From positions 124,001 to 188,000 of the forward strand of contig NZ_MJAT01000033.1 in the NCBI RefSeq assembly GCF_001742305.1: a DNA stretch of 64,000 bases. The letters are read 5' to 3'. Both the position numbers and the translations under genes were made by a program. Shown here in pieces: positions 14,895 to 25,325 of the stretch. Every line of letters begins with the position of its first letter. Within the stretch, counting starts at the first letter, position 1. The notes under the pieces are model-generated. The model was not told the DNA's origin, searched no databases, and saw only the letters and a list, made by a program, of their open reading frames with translations. Origin of the DNA: Desulfuribacillus stibiiarsenatis. GTDB lineage: Bacteria; Bacillota; Bacilli; Desulfuribacillales; Desulfuribacillaceae.

Positions 14895-16022
14895 TTAAGA
14901 CAATCTCATCTTGAAATCTTGATATCCAAATTGTTGGACGATTTGACATTCGCCATCTTTATCTTGAAGTGCGATCGCAGGTAAAGGCATACCATTAAAG
15001 GTCGTGTTCTTAACCATTGAGTAAATAGCCATATCTCCAAACACTAATCGATCGCCAGGTTTTAACGGCTCATCAAAGGAATAATCCCCTATGACATCAC
15101 CTGCTAGGCAGGTTTGACCACCTAGACGATACGTATAAGGTTTCTCACCTGCTTCTCCAGAACCAAAAAGAGGAGGGCGGTAAGGCATCTCTAATACATC
15201 TGGCATATGACAAGATGCGGACGTATCAAGGATAGCGATATCGATTCCATTGATATGATTATCAAGAACAGTAGTGACTAAATACCCTGCATTGAGTGCA
15301 ACCGCTTCACCAGGCTCAAGGTATACGCTTAAGCCATATTTTTCTTGCATTCTTTTAATGCAGCTTTCTAATCGAGGAATATCATAATCTTCTCTAGTAA
15401 TGTGATGACCACCACCAAAGTTGATCCATTCCATTTGTGATAGCCAAGGGCCGAACTTTTCTTCTACTGCATTTAGTGTTTTTTCTAAGTCGTCTGAGTT
15501 TTGCTGACATAATGTGTGAAAATGCAATCCAGAAATGCCTTCTAGCAAATCAGGGCGAAAATGTTCTATTGTTACACCAAAACGTGATCCAGGAGAGCAA
15601 GGATTGTATATGGCATGACCAATCTGTGTAGAGCATTCAGGATTAATTCGTAATCCCATTTTCTTACCAGCTTTCATAACCTTATCTTTAAATCTTTCGA
15701 TTTGAGAAAATGAGTTAAAGATAATATGGTCACAAATGGATATAATCTCATCTATCTCGTCATCACGGTATGCAGGAGCAAAGACATGATTTTCTTTTCC
15801 CATTTCCTCATATCCAAGACGAGCTTCATAGAGACCACTAGCAGTTGTACCCGTTAAATACTCTCCAATGAGCGGATACATTTTATACATAGAAAAAGCT
15901 TTTTGAGCTAAAACAATTTTGCATCCTGTACGGTCCATGACCCCACGCAGGATTCTTAAATTTTTCTCTAATAGGGCCTCATCTACTACATAGCACGGGG
16001 TAGGTAACTCTGTAAATTTCAT
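14895..16022 (-). CDS. nspC: Carboxynorspermidine decarboxylase
   Basis: The 375-residue fold III PLP decarboxylase has the PLP lysine in LAQKAFSMY (Lys41). The glycine-rich INFGGGHHITREDYD and the YLEPGEAV arginine/ornithine-decarboxylase-type motif also support it. It removes CO2 from carboxynorspermidine or carboxyspermidine, the last step in the alternative route to (nor)spermidine. It starts 1 nt after the stop of the synthase gene, so the two form an operon. Polyamines act in the cytoplasm on nucleic acids and biofilm control. Confidence 0.93.
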   Translation of the reverse strand: MKFTELPTPCYVVDEALLEKNLRILRGVMDRTGCKIVLAQKAFSMYKMYPLIGEYLTGTTASGLYEARLGYEEMGKENHVFAPAYRDDEIDEIISICDHIIFNSFSQIERFKDKVMKAGKKMGLRINPECSTQIGHAIYNPCSPGSRFGVTIEHFRPDLLEGISGLHFHTLCQQNSDDLEKTLNAVEEKFGPWLSQMEWINFGGGHHITREDYDIPRLESCIKRMQEKYGLSVYLEPGEAVALNAGYLVTTVLDNHINGIDIAILDTSASCHMPDVLEMPYRPPLFGSGEAGEKPYTYRLGGQTCLAGDVIGDYSFDEPLKPGDRLVFGDMAIYSMVKNTTFNGMPLPAIALQDKDGECQIVQQFGYQDFKMRLS

Positions 16023-16023
16023 C

Positions 16024-17223
16024 TTAGTCTACAAGCTCCGGATCAAAGCTTTCTTTCCATGGTAATCCCCATTTATTCAGTGCTTCCATAAATGGATCTG
16101 GATCGAACTCTTCAATATTATAAACACCTTTTTTATCCCATGTTCCTGTCATTAACATCATGGCACCAATCATTGCGGGAACTCCTGTTGTATATGCTAC
16201 CGCTTGAGAGCCCACCTCTTCGTAGCACTTTTCGTGAACACAAACGTTATATACATAGTAGGTCTTGTCTTGTCCATTCTTTTTACCACGGAAGATACAA
16301 CCTATATTCGTTTTCCCTTTTGTACGTGGTCCTAATGAAGAAGGATCTGGTAATACTGCTTTTAAGAATTGTAATGGTACAATTTGCTTACCTTCAAATT
16401 CAATTGGCTCAATGGAAGTCATTCCAACGTTTTCAAGACATTTTAAGTGCGTAAGATAGCTTTGTCCAAAGGTCATAAAGAAGCGAATACGTTTTAATCC
16501 AGGCATATTTACCGCAAGGGATTCAAGCTCTTCATGGTAAAGAAGGTACATATCTTTTTCCCCTACTTCAGGGAAGTTATATGTTCTTTTAATTTCCATT
16601 GGCTTCGTTTCAATCCACTCGCCATTTTCCCAGTATCTTCCGTTCGCTGATACTTCACGAATATTAATTTCTGGATTGAAATTGGTTGCAAAAGGATATC
16701 CATGATCTCCAGCATTACAATCAAGAATGTCAATATACTCTATTTCATCAAAGTAGTGCTTAAGTGCGTAAGCAGAGAATACTCCTGTTACACCAGGGTC
16801 AAAGCCGCTACCAAGAAGAGCAGTAATACCAGCTTCTTCAAAACGCTGACGGTAATCCCATTGCCATTTATATTCAAATTTTGCCGTATCCTCTGGCTCA
16901 TAATTTGCAGTATCTAAGTAATTTGTTTTTGTTGCTAAACAAGCATCCATTATCGTTAAATCTTGATAAGGTAGAGCTAAATTCATAACAAGATCAGGCT
17001 TGACTTGTTCAATTAAAGCAATTAACTCATCTACATTATCTGCATCTACTTGTGCAGTTGTAATTTTAGTTTTTCCGCCGTCTAATTTTTCTTTTAAGGC
17101 ATCGCATTTTGATTTCGTACGACTAGCAATGCAGATTTCTTCGAATACTTCACTATTTTGAACACACTTGTGAATAGCTACTGATCCTACTCCGCCACAA
17201 CCAATAATAAGTGCTTTTCCCAT
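16024..17223 (-). CDS. Carboxynorspermidine synthase (saccharopine-dehydrogenase-like)
   Basis: The 399-residue protein has a Rossmann nucleotide loop GCGGVGSVA (8-16) and the saccharopine dehydrogenase C-terminal domain. A lysine-forming saccharopine dehydrogenase is the alternative, but the immediate nspC partner favours CANSDH, which condenses aspartate semialdehyde with diaminopropane or putrescine using NADPH. It starts with ATG behind AGGAGAC and is first in the operon. A leader of about 480 nt with a terminator precedes it, suggesting attenuation. Confidence 0.9.
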   Translation of the reverse strand: MGKALIIGCGGVGSVAIHKCVQNSEVFEEICIASRTKSKCDALKEKLDGGKTKITTAQVDADNVDELIALIEQVKPDLVMNLALPYQDLTIMDACLATKTNYLDTANYEPEDTAKFEYKWQWDYRQRFEEAGITALLGSGFDPGVTGVFSAYALKHYFDEIEYIDILDCNAGDHGYPFATNFNPEINIREVSANGRYWENGEWIETKPMEIKRTYNFPEVGEKDMYLLYHEELESLAVNMPGLKRIRFFMTFGQSYLTHLKCLENVGMTSIEPIEFEGKQIVPLQFLKAVLPDPSSLGPRTKGKTNIGCIFRGKKNGQDKTYYVYNVCVHEKCYEEVGSQAVAYTTGVPAMIGAMMLMTGTWDKKGVYNIEEFDPDPFMEALNKWGLPWKESFDPELVD

Positions 17224-17281
17224 TTCACATGTCTCCTAACCATTTAATTTTTTAGCTGAGCAAAACAACCCGAAAAACAAC

Positions 17282-17326
17282 AAAAAAGCAGGTGTAAACG
17301 CATAATCGCGCACAACACTTGCTTTT
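17282..17326 (-). terminator. Terminator/attenuator hairpin in the leader of the carboxynorspermidine operon
   Basis: On the reverse strand AGCAAGTGT and ACACCTGCT form a 9-bp stem with one mismatch, extended by CGC/GCG inside the loop, and are followed by six T. It ends about 60 bp upstream of the synthase ATG, between the predicted promoter and the gene, as expected for an attenuator. Confidence 0.65.
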
Positions 17327-17499
17327 GATATAATCCATTAATATTAATTATAAGCACACTTTAACCGCAGTCATAACTAAACAATACAGTATAGTCCCAT
17401 GACCTATGTAAATAGCTTTTTAATATTCAGATATATCGTACTATCATCAGAGTCTATATAGCAAATAATTACTTTTACCACTCTTATTGATCGTTTCAC

Positions 17500-17700
17500 A
17501 AGTTGATGTGCAATGCACCGGTTATAAAGTAACCAACTTATAAAATTTGAGCTTTTAACTCAATCAATAAAGCAACTAAAGTTGCCGATCGGCATTTGAC
17601 CCGGCTGTCCGTATGGCCTTAACCTCATGAAGAAGTGGTCATAATTATCTGCGTGGAAAGACTCAAGTAGATATATTGAATAGTAGCTTTCCAATTAACG
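17500..17700 (-). ncRNA. Structured leader segment, riboswitch-like, class not recognised
   Basis: The first 200 nt of the predicted transcript contain several stems: TGGAAAG/CTTTCCA (17640-17692 region), GCCGATCGGC, GCAAC-TTTA-GTTGC, TTGAG/CTCAA and TTATAA-GT/AC-TTTATAA. Local GC content is higher than in the flanks. I compared it by eye with T-box, lysine, SAM, c-di-GMP, c-di-AMP, TPP, cobalamin and guanidine cores and found no convincing match. 17327-17499 shows nothing further recognisable. Confidence 0.35.
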
Positions 17701-17707
17701 CTTCTTT

Positions 17708-17736
17708 ATTCTATCAGTATATACATGAATCTACAA
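17708..17736 (-). promoter_or_regulatory. Promoter of the carboxynorspermidine operon leader
   Basis: On the reverse strand TTGTAG (17736-17731), a 17-bp spacer and TAGAAT (17713-17708) place transcription start near 17700, about 480 nt upstream of the gene. 17737-17895 holds no gene. Confidence 0.5.
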
Positions 17737-17895
17737 TAGGCAAATTAAAATTTTTCGCAAATTTCGACATGACATTCTTTCTCATCCAGGATTCTCAGAA
17801 TATATTTTAAACAAATACATTAAAAAATTAAACGCTATCATTGTAATCGTAAACATTATCATTTATAATTTCATTAAAGATTAAGGAGGTTTTCC

Positions 17896-18111
17896 ATGTC
17901 TGTATCTGAACAACTAAAAATTTTATGCGTAAAACTTGACGTCAGCGTTTCAGAGCTTGGTCGCATGGCCGGAAAAAGCCCGCAAGCATTCAGCCAGAAG
18001 TTAAAAAGAGAGAGTTTTACAGTTGATGAGCTTAAACACATCGCCGAGGCGACAGGCTGTAAATATGAAGGCTCCTTTGTTATGCTTAATGGCGAAAGGG
18101 TAACATACTAA
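17896..18111 (+). CDS. Small XRE-type helix-turn-helix protein
   Basis: The 71-residue protein has one Cro/C1-like helix-turn-helix: helices over residues 4-13, 17-24 (SVSELGRMAG), 28-37 (SPQAFSQKLK) and 43-52, then a short C-terminal tail. AGGAGG precedes ATG. It lies 21 nt upstream of the fic gene in the same direction, so it may regulate it or act as its partner. Its DNA target is unknown. Confidence 0.75.
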   Translation: MSVSEQLKILCVKLDVSVSELGRMAGKSPQAFSQKLKRESFTVDELKHIAEATGCKYEGSFVMLNGERVTY

Positions 18112-18132
18112 ATGGTGAAGTGAGGGTCTACA

Positions 18133-18873
18133 ATGAACATTTATGATAAAATTGACCAGCTAAAGTCATTAATTGATATACATCGGCCGTTTGAGGGTGA
18201 GCTCCTGAATGGAATAAAAGCCTATTATCGCATAGGGCTTACATGGTCGAGCAATGCCATAGAGGGGAATACACTTACCGAAAGTGAAACTAAGGTTCTT
18301 CTAGAGGATGGATTAACTGTCGGAGGCAAACCGCTCCGCGATACTTTTGAGGCCCTTGGTCATGCCCAAGCATACGACTTCATGTTTACGTTGCTGAATA
18401 GCCGCCAGATCACTGAAACCGACACCATGACTATGCACCGGATGTTCTATAAGGACATAGATGCCGAGACAGCTGGGCAGTATCGTACCCGACCTGTTAT
18501 CATAACTGGTTCTAAATTTGCCGTTACTAAAGTTGAGAAAATTCAAGAGGAGATGGAGAAGTTATTCCAGTGGGTGCTTAAGGAGCGAGACAGACACCAC
18601 CCTGTAGAGTTTGCAGCTCAACTTCATAAGAAGTTTGTATTTATTCACCCTTTTATTGATGGCAACGGAAGGATATCACGACTGTTAATGAATACGGCAC
18701 TTATTCAGGATGGATATATGATGGCTGTAATTCCGCCAATCCTGCGACAAGAGTATATCAGTTTACTGGAACGAGCTCACAAGGATGATAGGCCTTTTAT
18801 GGACTTTATAGCAGAGCGTGTGCTAGAGTCCGAGAAAGAGATAATTCGCTTGCTTCATATTACCCTTCCCTAA
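18133..18873 (+). CDS. Fic-family AMP-transferase-type protein with N-terminal inhibitory helix
   Basis: The 246-residue protein holds the Fic active site HPFIDGNGRISR (172-183, catalytic His172). It also holds the inhibitory motif SxxxEG in SNAIEG (40-45), which places it in the class II Fic proteins that inhibit themselves through a glutamate finger (Glu44). Fic proteins usually transfer AMP to a target hydroxyl, and some are toxins. GTGAGGG precedes the ATG; it follows the small XRE protein at 21 nt. Target unknown. Confidence 0.88.
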   Translation: MNIYDKIDQLKSLIDIHRPFEGELLNGIKAYYRIGLTWSSNAIEGNTLTESETKVLLEDGLTVGGKPLRDTFEALGHAQAYDFMFTLLNSRQITETDTMTMHRMFYKDIDAETAGQYRTRPVIITGSKFAVTKVEKIQEEMEKLFQWVLKERDRHHPVEFAAQLHKKFVFIHPFIDGNGRISRLLMNTALIQDGYMMAVIPPILRQEYISLLERAHKDDRPFMDFIAERVLESEKEIIRLLHITLP

Positions 18874-18879
18874 AATATA

Positions 18880-18921
18880 CCCACTCAACATATCCCTTTA
18901 TAAAAAGATATGCTGAGAGGG
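18880..18921. terminator. Bidirectional terminator between fic and RhuM-like gene
   Basis: CCCACTCAACATATC (18880-18894) pairs with GATATGCTGAGAGGG (18907-18921) with two mismatches and is followed by a T-rich stretch. Confidence 0.75.
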
Positions 18922-18923
18922 TT

Positions 18924-19976
18924 TTATTCTTTCTCATCCATGTTCTTTGCTTTCTCTGCAAATTCTAGTAGAAACTTGTCATAGTCAGACATGAAAATCC
19001 TATCTTGAATGATGCGATACTTTTCAAATTCACTTTCGGCATGTAATTTTGCTATTTCTGCTGTTACTTTTCCTGCATCTTTCAGTAAACCATATTGGAA
19101 CATTTCAATAAAGGCATTCAACCGCGTTTCCCAATCTTGCATGGTTAAGGGAATTTTTCGTTCGGCCATGTTTTCAGCAAAATCTAAGTATGAGCTTACC
19201 ATACGATGTAATTGATTCAATTCAAATTCGGACAAATAGTTTTTAGCAACCGTAACATCAGTAATTTTAATTTTTCCATCGGGGGCATCTTGCCAAGTAG
19301 TTAGTCCCATATGCTCTTTTTCGCTATTTGCTCTGCCAACGATAAGTTCCGCAGCAGTATGCCCGTGAACTGCGAAGTGCATTTTATTCTGTACCGTTGC
19401 GTAAAAACGTTTTGTAGATTTTGCGTTTTTATCATAATCAATTGCCGTTGCATATAAGTCAGTTATTTTTTGATAAAACTTTCGCTCACTGGCGCGAATT
19501 TCTCTTATCCTTGCTAACTGCTCCTCGAAATATTTGTCAGTTATGTATGATCCACTTTTTAATCGTTCATCATCCATAACCCAACCTTTAATCGTGTAAT
19601 CCTTTACAATCTGATTCGCCCATTTACGGAATTGGACAGCACGTTCATTATTCACTTTAAAACCCACAGCAATAACCATCTGCAAGTTATAGTGATTAGT
19701 ATCGTAGGTTTTACCATCAGCAGCAGTTATTCGAAATTTTCGAATAACTGAACTCTCCTCTTGTTCCGAGTCGACAAATATCTTTTTGATATGGTAGTTA
19801 ATTGTATGTGTTTCCACATCATACAGAGTAGCCATAATTTTTTGTGTCAGCCATATATTTTCATCCTCATATCGCATTTCAAAGTTGTCTTGATTTTCTC
19901 CCATTGAAGCGACAAAAGTCAGATACTCTGCGGCTGAACTACGGATTGTAATCTCATTTTTCTTTTTCTTTAGCAT
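18924..19976 (-). CDS. RhuM-family protein
   Basis: The frame opens with GTG at 20000, but AGGAG lies 10 nt before the ATG at 19976, so the protein is probably 350 residues starting MLKKKKNEITIRS. It matches the RhuM (virulence protein) family: the N-terminal segment WLTQKIMATLYDVETHTINYHIKK is a HTH-like region and FRKWANQIVKDYTIKGW the central signature. The family is found on pathogenicity and defence islands, often by restriction systems. Biochemical function is not established; some members have a Fic/Doc-like C-terminus, which is not obvious here. Confidence 0.82.
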   Translation of the reverse strand: MLKKKKNEITIRSSAAEYLTFVASMGENQDNFEMRYEDENIWLTQKIMATLYDVETHTINYHIKKIFVDSEQEESSVIRKFRITAADGKTYDTNHYNLQMVIAVGFKVNNERAVQFRKWANQIVKDYTIKGWVMDDERLKSGSYITDKYFEEQLARIREIRASERKFYQKITDLYATAIDYDKNAKSTKRFYATVQNKMHFAVHGHTAAELIVGRANSEKEHMGLTTWQDAPDGKIKITDVTVAKNYLSEFELNQLHRMVSSYLDFAENMAERKIPLTMQDWETRLNAFIEMFQYGLLKDAGKVTAEIAKLHAESEFEKYRIIQDRIFMSDYDKFLLEFAEKAKNMDEKE

Positions 19977-20328
19977 ATTCTCTAGTCTCCTATAACTCAC
20001 TTACTCATGGATGGAATTGAGCAATTTCAATACTGTATTTGATATCAGCCGCACATAACGAGTGTTTTTAAAGTGCTTGCTTACTAAAAAAATAACCCGT
20101 ACAGAAATGGATTTATTATAATAAAACGGCCCACCTTGGGACACGTTGTTAAGAGGTGCAGGCGGGATTTGTTATAATATTATACTAAAAATAATCAGTT
20201 ATTACTGCTTTTTCATCTGCTGGTATTTCCTCTATATGGAGTATAGTCTTTTTTGAACGGATTAGATATGGTGGTAGAGCAAAATATAAGGACTAAATAT
20301 CCATGGCCCAATTTGAAAATCTGCTAGC

Positions 20329-21642: not shown

Positions 21643-23103
21643 TTATAAATGAAGTATACCTATATCCATTTTTTCACTTGCTAAATAGTACGAGTATATC
21701 AATGCTGCGGGCAACTGTCTTATTTGTATATTCTGTAAACCGAGAGCATCTAACATTTCTATATTGACGTATCCTTTATTAATAATGCTATGTTGTTCGG
21801 TTGGCATCAAAAAGCAATTTTTAACATCTTGAATTCCATGATCATTAACAAATTTTTTATATGCCAACTGATATAGGTACTGCTTTGTAATATCACCAAT
21901 TCCAGGTTGTCCACGCAGTTCTTTTCCATGCTCAAGTTGAATATTATAATACTTAGCATCAAATATAATGAACTGATGTGAGTTATTCATCTTATGGATT
22001 GACACAAGGTCTGGAACGAGGGTATCCCTAGCGGTCTTTTGAAATTCAGAACTATCTTGCTTATAACCATTCCACTTTGGCTTTTCTATTAATGAAATGA
22101 GTAGGTCATAAGGATTATATCCGTCAGTTAAAGAAATAGACAGTGAACCGAGTGGAGTCTGTAATTGATTGTCTAGTACTTCCGCACACACCTTTTCCCA
22201 TACTAGATTAAAACTGTTTGTACCAAACATAGTGAAACAATCAATTTCTGTAAGAACGCTACAATGTGCAACATAAGCATATAACGTCTTTAGTAATAAC
22301 TGCTTTCTTGTATTAAACTGCAAATTCAATTCATTTTGTATGCGGTAAAGTATATAGTTTGTTTCTCCAAAGTCATCTAGTTCTTCATCAGACATTCCAA
22401 CTGGTAGGATATCAAACAAATCCAGCAAATCTGCATCTTGTAGTTCTCTAGAGCAAATACTTACAATTGATTCATGAAGCCTTTTAAAGTAATCAAAATC
22501 ATCATTAATACATTTTTGTGTAAACAGTTCTGTGTAATATGGTCGATTGTTACAGAGATAAGTAAAAGTCTCATTTATCGTCTTGTCCCACAGTATTTCA
22601 CCAGAACCATTAGTTTCAATTATATTTTTTATATTCGTATATGCACCATTTTCGTAATAGTCATGTAGCAAGAAAATCATAACAGCAAGTAAGTTGAAAG
22701 CACTGCTTTCACTATTATCATTATACATACGAATGATTTGCTCTTTGGCATTATACTTTTCAAGAACCTTTATTATTATTTTTAACTCTGTTAAAGGCTC
22801 ATTATTAGATAAGATATATTTAGGATAGCATTTTAATACACAACCCCAAACAGTTATTACACCAACGAAAGTAAACACATAAAGGTATTCGTTCTCACCA
22901 ATCTCTACATCTGCAACTTCAATATCTTCGTCCATAAGATCTGACATATTTTTTTGAGAATCCGTTGCTTTAACAGCCTTTAGAACACCAAACTCTTTCA
23001 AGCGCTTAATAATACCTACCGTTTTTTCTTCCGAACATTGAAAGATGCCCTGTAATTCAGCTTGATTGTATCTTTTCTGTTCTCGGACAAACTTCGATAT
23101 CAT
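21643..23103 (-). CDS. LlaJI-type restriction endonuclease subunit (McrC-like)
   Basis: The 486-residue protein has a C-terminal PD-(D/E)xK nuclease signature PDLVSIHKM ... FIIFDAKYY (about 362-384), preceded by a McrC-like N-terminal domain. It matches the LlaJI R2/BsuMI YdjA group, where this subunit cleaves DNA and is driven by the McrB-like partner. Its ATG overlaps the stop of the AAA+ gene (ATGA), so the two subunits are translationally coupled. It is the last gene of the five-gene restriction-modification operon. Confidence 0.85.
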   Translation of the reverse strand: MISKFVREQKRYNQAELQGIFQCSEEKTVGIIKRLKEFGVLKAVKATDSQKNMSDLMDEDIEVADVEIGENEYLYVFTFVGVITVWGCVLKCYPKYILSNNEPLTELKIIIKVLEKYNAKEQIIRMYNDNSESSAFNLLAVMIFLLHDYYENGAYTNIKNIIETNGSGEILWDKTINETFTYLCNNRPYYTELFTQKCINDDFDYFKRLHESIVSICSRELQDADLLDLFDILPVGMSDEELDDFGETNYILYRIQNELNLQFNTRKQLLLKTLYAYVAHCSVLTEIDCFTMFGTNSFNLVWEKVCAEVLDNQLQTPLGSLSISLTDGYNPYDLLISLIEKPKWNGYKQDSSEFQKTARDTLVPDLVSIHKMNNSHQFIIFDAKYYNIQLEHGKELRGQPGIGDITKQYLYQLAYKKFVNDHGIQDVKNCFLMPTEQHSIINKGYVNIEMLDALGLQNIQIRQLPAALIYSYYLASEKMDIGILHL

Positions 23104-25325
23104 TCCGCACCGTCCTCCGTAATGTTAATTGCAGGAGCAGGAGCAGGAAATTTATTACTGATATTTTTGGCAAAGATAAATATACCCTTATCCTCAAACT
23201 CTTTACAAATAGAAGAGTATTTCGTCTTATCATTACAACCATCAAAAAGAGTCTGGCGTTTTTGCTTTGCTGCGTCATCAAATAGATACATGATAACTTT
23301 GCTCTTAAATGTGGCAATAAACTTTTGTGGGTCAATAGGCTCAGTTTCAGGAACGATTTTCTTTGACAGGAAATAAGGGCCAAGCAACTTATCCTCATTC
23401 AACTTATATGAAAGAAGTTCAGTATTTATTGCTTTACGCAATTCATTCCACTCAACGATTCTCTTGTTTACACCTTTACCAAGTTCAACAGTTTTACCTG
23501 CTATTTTTTCTTCGCTATCATCAATACCTAAATAAGTGAAGTCCCATCTACGTTTGAATGCAGTATCCATCGGGAATACGCCTTGGTCAGCACTATTCAT
23601 AGTTGCCCAGATAAACATATTATCTGGGATTTTGATTTCAGAATACTCTTGTGGCTTTCCACCTAATTCTTTAGCAAGATATTTTTTAATGTCCTCAGAT
23701 GTCTGAATAGCATATTCACTGACATTATCCTCATCACGGTCTAATAACTGGAATATATCACCAAATACAGCTGCAACATTCGATCTGTTGATTTCTTCAA
23801 CAATTAATAAATATGGCTTAGGATTTTCTGACTTAGCATTTTTAAGTGCTTTAACATACGTCCTCATAAATGGGCCAGGAACGTATTCATATGCAATTTC
23901 ACTAGCAGGCCTATTATTTGAAATCAGATTTACATATGGCCTAATCGCACGACCATGATTTCGTTCAACGCTATTATCACCACTAGCATCAGAGCCATCT
24001 TTTTTCTTAGTTTTAAACTTGTCATCATTATATAGCCCTAGCAAAAGTGGTAAGCGAGTTAAATCGCCATCTTTAAATTTGTCATATAGCAAATTATATT
24101 TTTCTTGAGCCGTTTTATCATCCAATAGAACTGTTAAAACATCCCTCTCATCTTCGCTTCCAATCAGATTCTCTACTGCATCCACCACCATCGTAGGCTT
24201 GTAAGTTCCCACAAAGTTAGCATACGAATAGTCGGGATGGAAAGTCACACGTTCGTACTCGCCACCATTTTCAAACAAGATATCCTTATCTCGATTTAAA
24301 GTATAACTTTTGCCTGTTCCGGGAGCACCAAAGATAATTCTATTATGGTGGAATTTATCAGTTTGATATCCTGTTTTAAATTTTATGGATTCGGCACTAG
24401 AAGGATTAGTAAGATAGTTGCCATTGGATTCATGTACCGTATCTGCTCTACCCTGTACTTCTTCATACTCGTCAATTCCTACAATTTTTGTAGTACTTAG
24501 AGACAGGAATGTAGAAACACGTTTTTGATAATCGGCAAGTCTTAGATCTGGATCGTTTGAATAAGTAACTGTTCCACGCGAATAATTCAAATATGGATTA
24601 GTTCCATCACTTAGCGAGGTTTTCAGAACTCGTAATGAACCCTTGGCTTCTTTATCACCATTAATGTCTACTGGTGCGGTGGTAGTTAAAAGTTTACGAT
24701 AGATGCTATCTTGATTAAAAATTACATCTTGACCGCTATCATCAAGTTTAAATACTGCTGTTTCTGACATAGCCGTTAATACGGACTTAAGTAATTTATC
24801 TTCACGTTCACTTGTGGCAACATTCAATCCTAACCAATTAAGCAAAACTTCCTTATACTTCTCCTCTGTCACAGCCATAGCGACATCAATAATATCCATA
24901 TTCAAAGTAAAATGTATCTCTTTTGGATATCTCACACCGCCTGTTCTCTCAGAACTAACAGGCTTAGTATTATCCTGAAAAACAATTTCCCCCAATTTCC
25001 AATACAGTTCAAACGCTACAATTAGAGCTTCCATTTGCGATTTTAATAGTTGATTGTTATTCACTGTTTGGCGAAATTGATCATCCGAAACGCCATGAGC
25101 ACTATACACTGGCGAAGAGTATGCAACAAGCTTATTCATGAGTTCATCCGAAATACGAATTGACTCACCATCTTGAACCGAATACTTTACTTCTGCCGGA
25201 CGTCCTTCACTCTTCCAAATCAAAATAAAAAGGGCAAGTGTCGCTTTAACATTGGGCAAAGACGACTTAATGCCAAGTTTTAAATCTATATCTTTATAAA
25301 TTAACATGTTTCCTGGCCTTTGCAT
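23100..25325 (-). CDS. McrB-like AAA+ restriction motor subunit
   Basis: The 741-residue protein has AAA+ Walker A GAPGTGKSYT (from about residue 333), Walker B LLIVEEINR (about 503) and the McrB-type N-X-X-D-equivalent loop ATMNSADQGVFPMDTAF. The C-terminus is AAA+ lid. The N-terminal about 320 residues are probably the DNA-recognition part; the family is not clear. It starts with ATG behind AAGGAGG and overlaps the C5-methyltransferase by 32 nt. It resembles LlaJI R1 and BsuMI YdiS; GTP use is inferred from McrB. Confidence 0.88.
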   Translation of the reverse strand: MQRPGNMLIYKDIDLKLGIKSSLPNVKATLALFILIWKSEGRPAEVKYSVQDGESIRISDELMNKLVAYSSPVYSAHGVSDDQFRQTVNNNQLLKSQMEALIVAFELYWKLGEIVFQDNTKPVSSERTGGVRYPKEIHFTLNMDIIDVAMAVTEEKYKEVLLNWLGLNVATSEREDKLLKSVLTAMSETAVFKLDDSGQDVIFNQDSIYRKLLTTTAPVDINGDKEAKGSLRVLKTSLSDGTNPYLNYSRGTVTYSNDPDLRLADYQKRVSTFLSLSTTKIVGIDEYEEVQGRADTVHESNGNYLTNPSSAESIKFKTGYQTDKFHHNRIIFGAPGTGKSYTLNRDKDILFENGGEYERVTFHPDYSYANFVGTYKPTMVVDAVENLIGSEDERDVLTVLLDDKTAQEKYNLLYDKFKDGDLTRLPLLLGLYNDDKFKTKKKDGSDASGDNSVERNHGRAIRPYVNLISNNRPASEIAYEYVPGPFMRTYVKALKNAKSENPKPYLLIVEEINRSNVAAVFGDIFQLLDRDEDNVSEYAIQTSEDIKKYLAKELGGKPQEYSEIKIPDNMFIWATMNSADQGVFPMDTAFKRRWDFTYLGIDDSEEKIAGKTVELGKGVNKRIVEWNELRKAINTELLSYKLNEDKLLGPYFLSKKIVPETEPIDPQKFIATFKSKVIMYLFDDAAKQKRQTLFDGCNDKTKYSSICKEFEDKGIFIFAKNISNKFPAPAPAINITEDGAE

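Follow-up and report, generated by a model that had tools for sequence, protein, structure and literature searches.

The RNA leader upstream of a carboxy(nor)spermidine dehydrogenase-nspC operon in Desulfuribacillus stibiiarsenatis is a member of a widespread family of candidate polyamine riboswitches, of which the databases hold only an optional fragment. The window comprises 64,000 nucleotides of contig NZ_MJAT01000033.1 (positions are those of the window; leader features lie on the minus strand and are given 5' to 3'). A sequence-only reading had described the leader as riboswitch-like; the finding is real and larger than first noted. Judged from comparative sequence analysis, the leader is probably a transcription-attenuating OFF riboswitch that would bind spermidine or a close polyamine. 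Our confidence is high that it works as an attenuator and moderate that its ligand is a polyamine. Comparison among relatives supports a conserved fold, mutually exclusive pairing, a terminator, and an exclusive tie to genes of polyamine synthesis or import; we infer that a ligand binds directly, what that ligand is, and that the switch works in the OFF direction.

A promoter had been claimed for the leader. We found by consensus scan a sigma-A type site (TTGCCT-16-TATACT, 17743-17716) whose position agrees with the promoters of relatives, although it is weak by the scan alone (7 promoter-like sites in the region vs. 5.7 expected). A good upstream sigma-A promoter is present in 75% of 67 non-redundant relatives, compared with 8% of shuffles, and the promoter ends 90-150 nt 5' of helix P5 in 51 of the 67 (146 nt in the window). 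Transcription would start near 17709, and the structured leader RNA (17694-17449) lies between the promoter and an intrinsic terminator (AAAAGCAAGUGU...ACACCUGCUUUUUU, 17326-17283). The terminator, a hairpin of -16.2 kcal/mol with a T run behind it, is located 60 nt upstream of the ATG at 17223, as had been read from the sequence. Among the matches listed, a terminator lies 5' of the ORF in 120 of 133 relatives and is nearly always strong. The consensus scan of the region did not list the terminator at 17326-17283, probably because its pattern admits only continuous stems with short loops.

The first regulated gene (16024-17223, minus strand) encodes a carboxy(nor)spermidine dehydrogenase (CASDH) of the saccharopine-dehydrogenase fold, and the second, nspC (14895-16022, minus strand), encodes a carboxy(nor)spermidine decarboxylase (TIGR01047, 499.9 bits, above the curated cut-off). 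The dehydrogenase scores 426 bits against NF043000 (carboxynorspermidine synthase), for which 800 are required, so carboxyspermidine dehydrogenase is the safer name. The genome has speD-, speA- and speE-like genes at other places; a covariance model of the element core (R1) finds a single copy in this genome and no second one. Divergent from the operon and directly behind the promoter, the region 17896-20000 encodes a 71-aa protein and a Fic/DOC family protein (18133-18873), with a RhuM-family protein (18924-20000) beyond the Fic/DOC gene; its content suggests a mobile or defence-type segment. At 21643-25325 (minus strand), two adjoining ORFs resemble, by the ORF list alone, a McrB-type ATPase and a McrC-type partner.

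A scan of 17200-17900 gave a single Rfam family at E <= 1, RF02440 (SpF59, "ldcC RNA"), which matches 17641-17589 with 70.7 bits (gathering score 37.2) and covers 53 of the ~210 nt of the element. RF02440 is a 54-nt model typed as an sRNA gene and carrying no ligand, so the scan returned no class with another ligand. The earlier reading, in which no known class was recognised by eye, must give way for 17641-17589 and stands for the core (17570-17449), where Rfam gives nothing at E <= 1. The core (by Rfam 15), the terminator and the antiterminator are all absent from Rfam. At the gathering threshold, neither RF02440 nor any other Rfam family was found at the element in 17 of 18 core-bearing loci scanned, and in 11 divergent loci RF02440 was the only family to reach E <= 1. 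The core is kept in many relatives that carry a short hairpin in place of the RF02440 domain; one locus (L181) matches both RF02440 and R1. The domain is therefore not essential to the element but an optional peripheral part of it.

In the window's element, as in many relatives, the RF02440 model corresponds to the P2 domain. What it describes appears to be one piece of a cis-regulatory leader found in many Bacillota; its typing as a Streptococcus sRNA gene may need correction. The alias "ldcC RNA" indicates that the gene association of the RNA had been noticed before. A likeness of the RF02440 part to 5S rRNA, seen by eye, was discarded, with no Rfam 5S match at E <= 1. Lysine riboswitches and T-boxes (RF00230) resemble the element in acting by transcription attenuation in Bacillota, but neither is matched in the leader at E <= 1. 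Neither the window leader nor the 11 divergent loci matched the SAM family (the SAM-I scaffold) at E <= 1.

Comparison of 18 RF02440 loci, taken from a 398-genome sample of the phylum, showed that they have ~210 nt in common, not 54. A pattern derived from the common 3' part, scanned over 84,980 species, gave at least 120 loci, which among the matches listed include Paenibacillus, Bacillus, Aquibacillus, Acetobacterium, Faecalibacterium, Mediterraneibacter, Ruminococcus and others. In total we gathered at least 138 loci in Bacillota, most of them selected with an exact pattern in which parts of P5, P7 and P10 are fixed. Seven of 138 gathered loci end too early for gene context. In all 131 evaluable loci, among the matches listed, the next gene is speD (43), speA (41), CASDH (30) or potA (17), so the RNA is logically tied to the genes of one metabolite. 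R1 matches 24 of 398 genomes of the phylum (~6%; 18 of 267 genera) and 28 of 299 genomes of the class. It also finds divergent loci (45-56 bits), several of them beyond the reach of the exact pattern, and these too precede speA, speD or CASDH. A complete operon speD-speA-speE-speB-CASDH-CASDC behind one element was read in two loci (L024 and L102), and two import operons behind the element read as potABCD-like.

The stem-rich RNA of about 200 nt noted earlier is borne out as a conserved 5' leader fold of ~210 nt with covarying helices. The element is closed by P1, in which GCAGATAATTA (17652-17642) pairs with UAAUUAUUUGC (17471-17461). In a fixed-position test over 36 loci, the 15 nt before GACC pair more stably with the 3' strand of their own locus (-5.42 kcal) than with those of other loci (-3.48 +/- 0.27 kcal), a locus-specific covariation with z=-7.1 (0 of 5000 permutations). 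Between the promoter and P1 lies the P0 hairpin (GGAAAG...CTTTCC, 17692-17655); similar hairpins in relatives (mean -7.9 vs. -5.9 kcal for shuffles, sd 3.2) weakly suggest that it is conserved. GAGUC in the 3' arm of P0 (17664-17660) is complementary to GACUC at 17454-17450 and is an alternative P10 partner in many, not all, relatives.

Within P1, the peripheral domain P2/P2a/P2b with loop CAUACGGACA (17641-17589) is the part matched by RF02440. The CGG of the P2b loop (P2b, 17618-17598) and the downstream GCCGA (17593-17589) are near-invariant and tend to come and go with the P2 domain, which suggests a tertiary contact; the bases of a possible pseudoknot between this CGG and the downstream CCG(A) are conserved and have no covariation. 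The P4 hairpin follows (GGCAAC-UUUA-GUUGCU, 17586-17571). Present in nearly all of 72 non-redundant loci, it has a mean stability of -7.35 kcal vs. -2.88 kcal for shuffles, and its sequence changes in relatives (e.g. GGCGGU/ACCGCC).

The core contains helices P5 to P9 and a pseudoknot, P10. In P5, UUAUUGA (17570-17564) pairs with UCAAUAA (17490-17484), with 97.4% of cells paired and a compensatory change to UGUUGA/UCAACA in locus L161. The P6 hairpin (UUGAG-UUAAAAG-CUCAA, 17563-17547) has both-sided changes in 5 of 5 pairs. P7 joins UUUUAUAAGUU (17545-17535) to AACUUGUGAAA (17504-17494), the switch strand; 97.3% of cells are paired and double changes occur in 6 of 10 pairs. An initial assignment of AAGUUG/CAACUU as the entire P7 was replaced by this longer helix, which RNAalifold also finds. 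The P8 hairpin (GGUU..AACC, 17534-17520) has double changes in 4 of 4 pairs, and P9 (GUGC-AUU-GCAC, 17518-17508) is variable, most relatives having a hairpin of other sequence at the same place. P10 straddles P1, with GAGU (17483-17480) pairing with 17453-17450 in the conserved 3' end UAUAUAGACUCU (17460-17449); 96% of cells are paired, and the pairing changes to GAGC/GCUC in locus L161 and possibly to AGUA/UACU in loci L181-L184.

In a 101-row model alignment, which is biased to P5-P8 as helices contained in R1 (P10 is absent from the model), 96.1% of cells in P5, P6, P7, P8 and P10 are paired. Double changes occur in 19 of 30 pairs, vs. 5.1 +/- 1.8 in shuffles; the covariation score is 0.112, vs. 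0.054 in shuffles; and pairing falls to 32-50% when partners are slid by 1-3 columns. RNAalifold recovered P5, P6, P7 and P10 de novo from an independent MAFFT alignment. In loci L019-L138, the 5' strand of P10 and the 3' strands of P5 and P7 owe part of their invariance to the search pattern, which holds these strands fixed. Three loci before pot-type genes (L054, L090, L118) have an insertion of ~100 nt in the core near P8, with further hairpins, and keep P9 and the switch strand. Four shortened elements (L015, L029, L055, L103) lack most of P6-P9 and keep P5, the GUGAAA..UCAAUAAGAGUnGUAAAAG segment and the 3' end; these may represent a minimal functional core.

The 3' strands of P9 and P7 (17516-17498) also form the 5' half of an antiterminator, pairing with the 5' arm of the terminator (17322-17300) in a duplex of -16.0 kcal. 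This switch strand lies ~175 nt upstream of the terminator, not adjoining it. Because the same bases form P9/P7 in the aptamer and the antiterminator in the alternative, the two states are mutually exclusive, and stabilisation of the aptamer would free the terminator. Across 56 non-redundant loci, the ACUUGUG-region strand pairs with its own terminator 5' arm at a mean of -11.5 kcal, compared with -8.9 +/- 0.30 kcal in permuted loci (z=-8.8, 0 of 2000 permutations). The terminator 3' arm and three other aptamer strands gave z between -0.6 and 0.6 in the same test; the permutations ignore phylogeny, as do those of the P1 test, and these control strands have the same phylogeny as the tested strand. 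In the pot loci it is the 3' strand of P9 that pairs (GCAUAC with GUAUGC), a shift that shows selection on pairing and not on one sequence. By its sequence anatomy the leader is a predicted transcriptional OFF switch. With covariation and a conserved terminator both present in relatives and the antiterminator matched locus by locus, the attenuation layout first proposed for the leader is strongly supported.

In the mechanism we propose, RNA polymerase starting near 17709 would produce an aptamer of ~210 nt closed by the long-range P1 and by pseudoknot P10 and containing P5-P9. With ample polyamine end product (most likely spermidine), this ligand would bind and keep the aptamer folded, P7 and P9 included. 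That would hold the ACUUGUG strand away from the terminator 5' arm, the terminator would form, and transcription would stop before CASDH-nspC. When the polyamine is scarce, the 3' strands of P9 and P7 would pair with the terminator 5' arm and the operon would be transcribed. Counting against this reading is the loss of most of P6-P9 in some relatives (e.g. L015, L029 and L055), which makes any assignment of the ligand-binding parts tentative.

The choice of ligand follows from gene context. Both the CASDH route and the speD/speE route yield spermidine, which is also a Pot substrate. CASDH-nspC, speD-speA-speE-speB and potABCD are linked by spermidine alone, which favours it as the ligand. The leader had been suggested to sense a metabolite of the polyamine, lysine or aspartate family. 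A polyamine fits all four gene contexts best; lysine and the aspartate family fit worse, because the RNA also precedes speD-speA-speE-speB operons and potABCD importers.

The same attenuator could instead serve an aptamer for a different pathway metabolite (decarboxylated SAM, putrescine, agmatine, arginine or lysine), which we regard as unlikely, though the strongest of the alternatives. SpeA uses arginine or lysine and makes agmatine or cadaverine, SpeD makes decarboxylated SAM, and a large, highly conserved core would suit a ligand bigger than spermidine. Decarboxylated SAM may be present in the window's organism, given its speD-, speA- and speE-like genes, but it is outside the CASDH route, and the potABCD operons (17 loci) and stand-alone CASDH-nspC operons (CASDH comes first in 30 loci) have spermidine in common, not decarboxylated SAM, arginine or lysine. 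The CASDH route uses putrescine as a substrate, and repression of CASDH-nspC by its own substrate would be illogical.

That a protein, an RNA-binding antiterminator or repressor, reads the fold in place of a small molecule seems improbable. The size of the element and its very high sequence conservation could fit such a regulator, but the element is spread over many families and several operon types, and, as is typical of aptamers, many of its conserved nucleotides are unpaired. We know of no polyamine regulator of this kind.

The pneumococcal counterpart of RF02440 bears on whether the RNA acts in trans. In S. pneumoniae TIGR4 it is SN20, an RNA of ~318 nt with a promoter and a Rho-independent terminator between SP0915 and SP0916 (PMC2887815), also listed as F59/srn235 (PMC3395615); the names F59, SN20, srn235 and Spd_sr49 are equivalent. 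The 2010 authors guessed at an FMN switch (PMC2887815), and a 2025 study still places the RNA among putative sRNAs (PMC12323649). Detection of a discrete RNA in these studies (PMC2887815, PMC3395615, PMC12323649) agrees with the trans-acting sRNA as which RF02440 is typed in Rfam and in the pneumococcal lists, but a terminated leader accounts for the short RNA, and among the matches listed the element is always in cis before polyamine genes, with a terminator and a matched antiterminator; we consider a trans-acting sRNA very improbable. Least probable is leader-peptide attenuation or a T-box, which would share the attenuation layout and an example of which occurs elsewhere in the window (a T-box, RF00230, 6844-7075, minus strand, 105.3 bits, above the gathering score), since the leader has no T-box match even at E <= 1, its short ORFs are without an obvious ribosome site or a run of pathway codons, and what is conserved is RNA structure, with frame-breaking indels.

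Under an OFF riboswitch for a polyamine, the pneumococcal operon should rise when polyamines are scarce. Blocking polyamine uptake with AMXT 1501 raised SPD0809, 0811, 0813, 0814 and 0815 by 1.4-1.9-fold (PMC10887117), as an OFF switch predicts; that study did not link the rise to the RNA. With DFMO, two genes of the same operon decreased by 1.5-fold (PMC10887117), which is opposite to simple derepression, the effect of DFMO on the pools there being ambiguous.

In the literature searched, one validated spermidine riboswitch class was found, a rare SAM-I variant (Trichococcus ilyis ldcC; PMC10853860). It controls ldcC, speE and speB and, like the element described here, is a transcriptional OFF switch acting by a choice between terminator and antiterminator (PMC10853860). 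The window's element differs in its scaffold, having no SAM-family match at E <= 1, and is far more widespread, also preceding CASDH, speD and potA. The potE and odc1 motifs are likewise candidate cis-regulatory RNAs tied to polyamine genes, set apart by their descriptions: potE is confined to Veillonella and environmental samples, and odc1 to alpha-proteobacteria (PMC8632094). We found no description of the element as a polyamine riboswitch in the literature searched, a body that excludes the 2017 Weinberg candidate-RNA list, and no mention of ldcC or of a bacterial polyamine candidate in the 2010 candidate list or in reviews.

Natural polyamine riboswitches have long been claimed without proof, and polyamines, which bind RNA non-specifically, are a hard class of ligand. 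The balance of evidence leans slightly toward the element being a second class of natural riboswitch for spermidine (polyamines) in Bacillota, independent of the first in structure and far more widespread, that would use a pseudoknotted core within ~210 nt to control both synthesis and import, with the pneumococcal "sRNA" F59 as its terminated product. If so, the pneumococcal RNA would be explained anew, the element would present a complex new fold, and there would be a general RNA mechanism for polyamine homeostasis in these bacteria, including gut Clostridia, Paenibacillus and probably streptococci.
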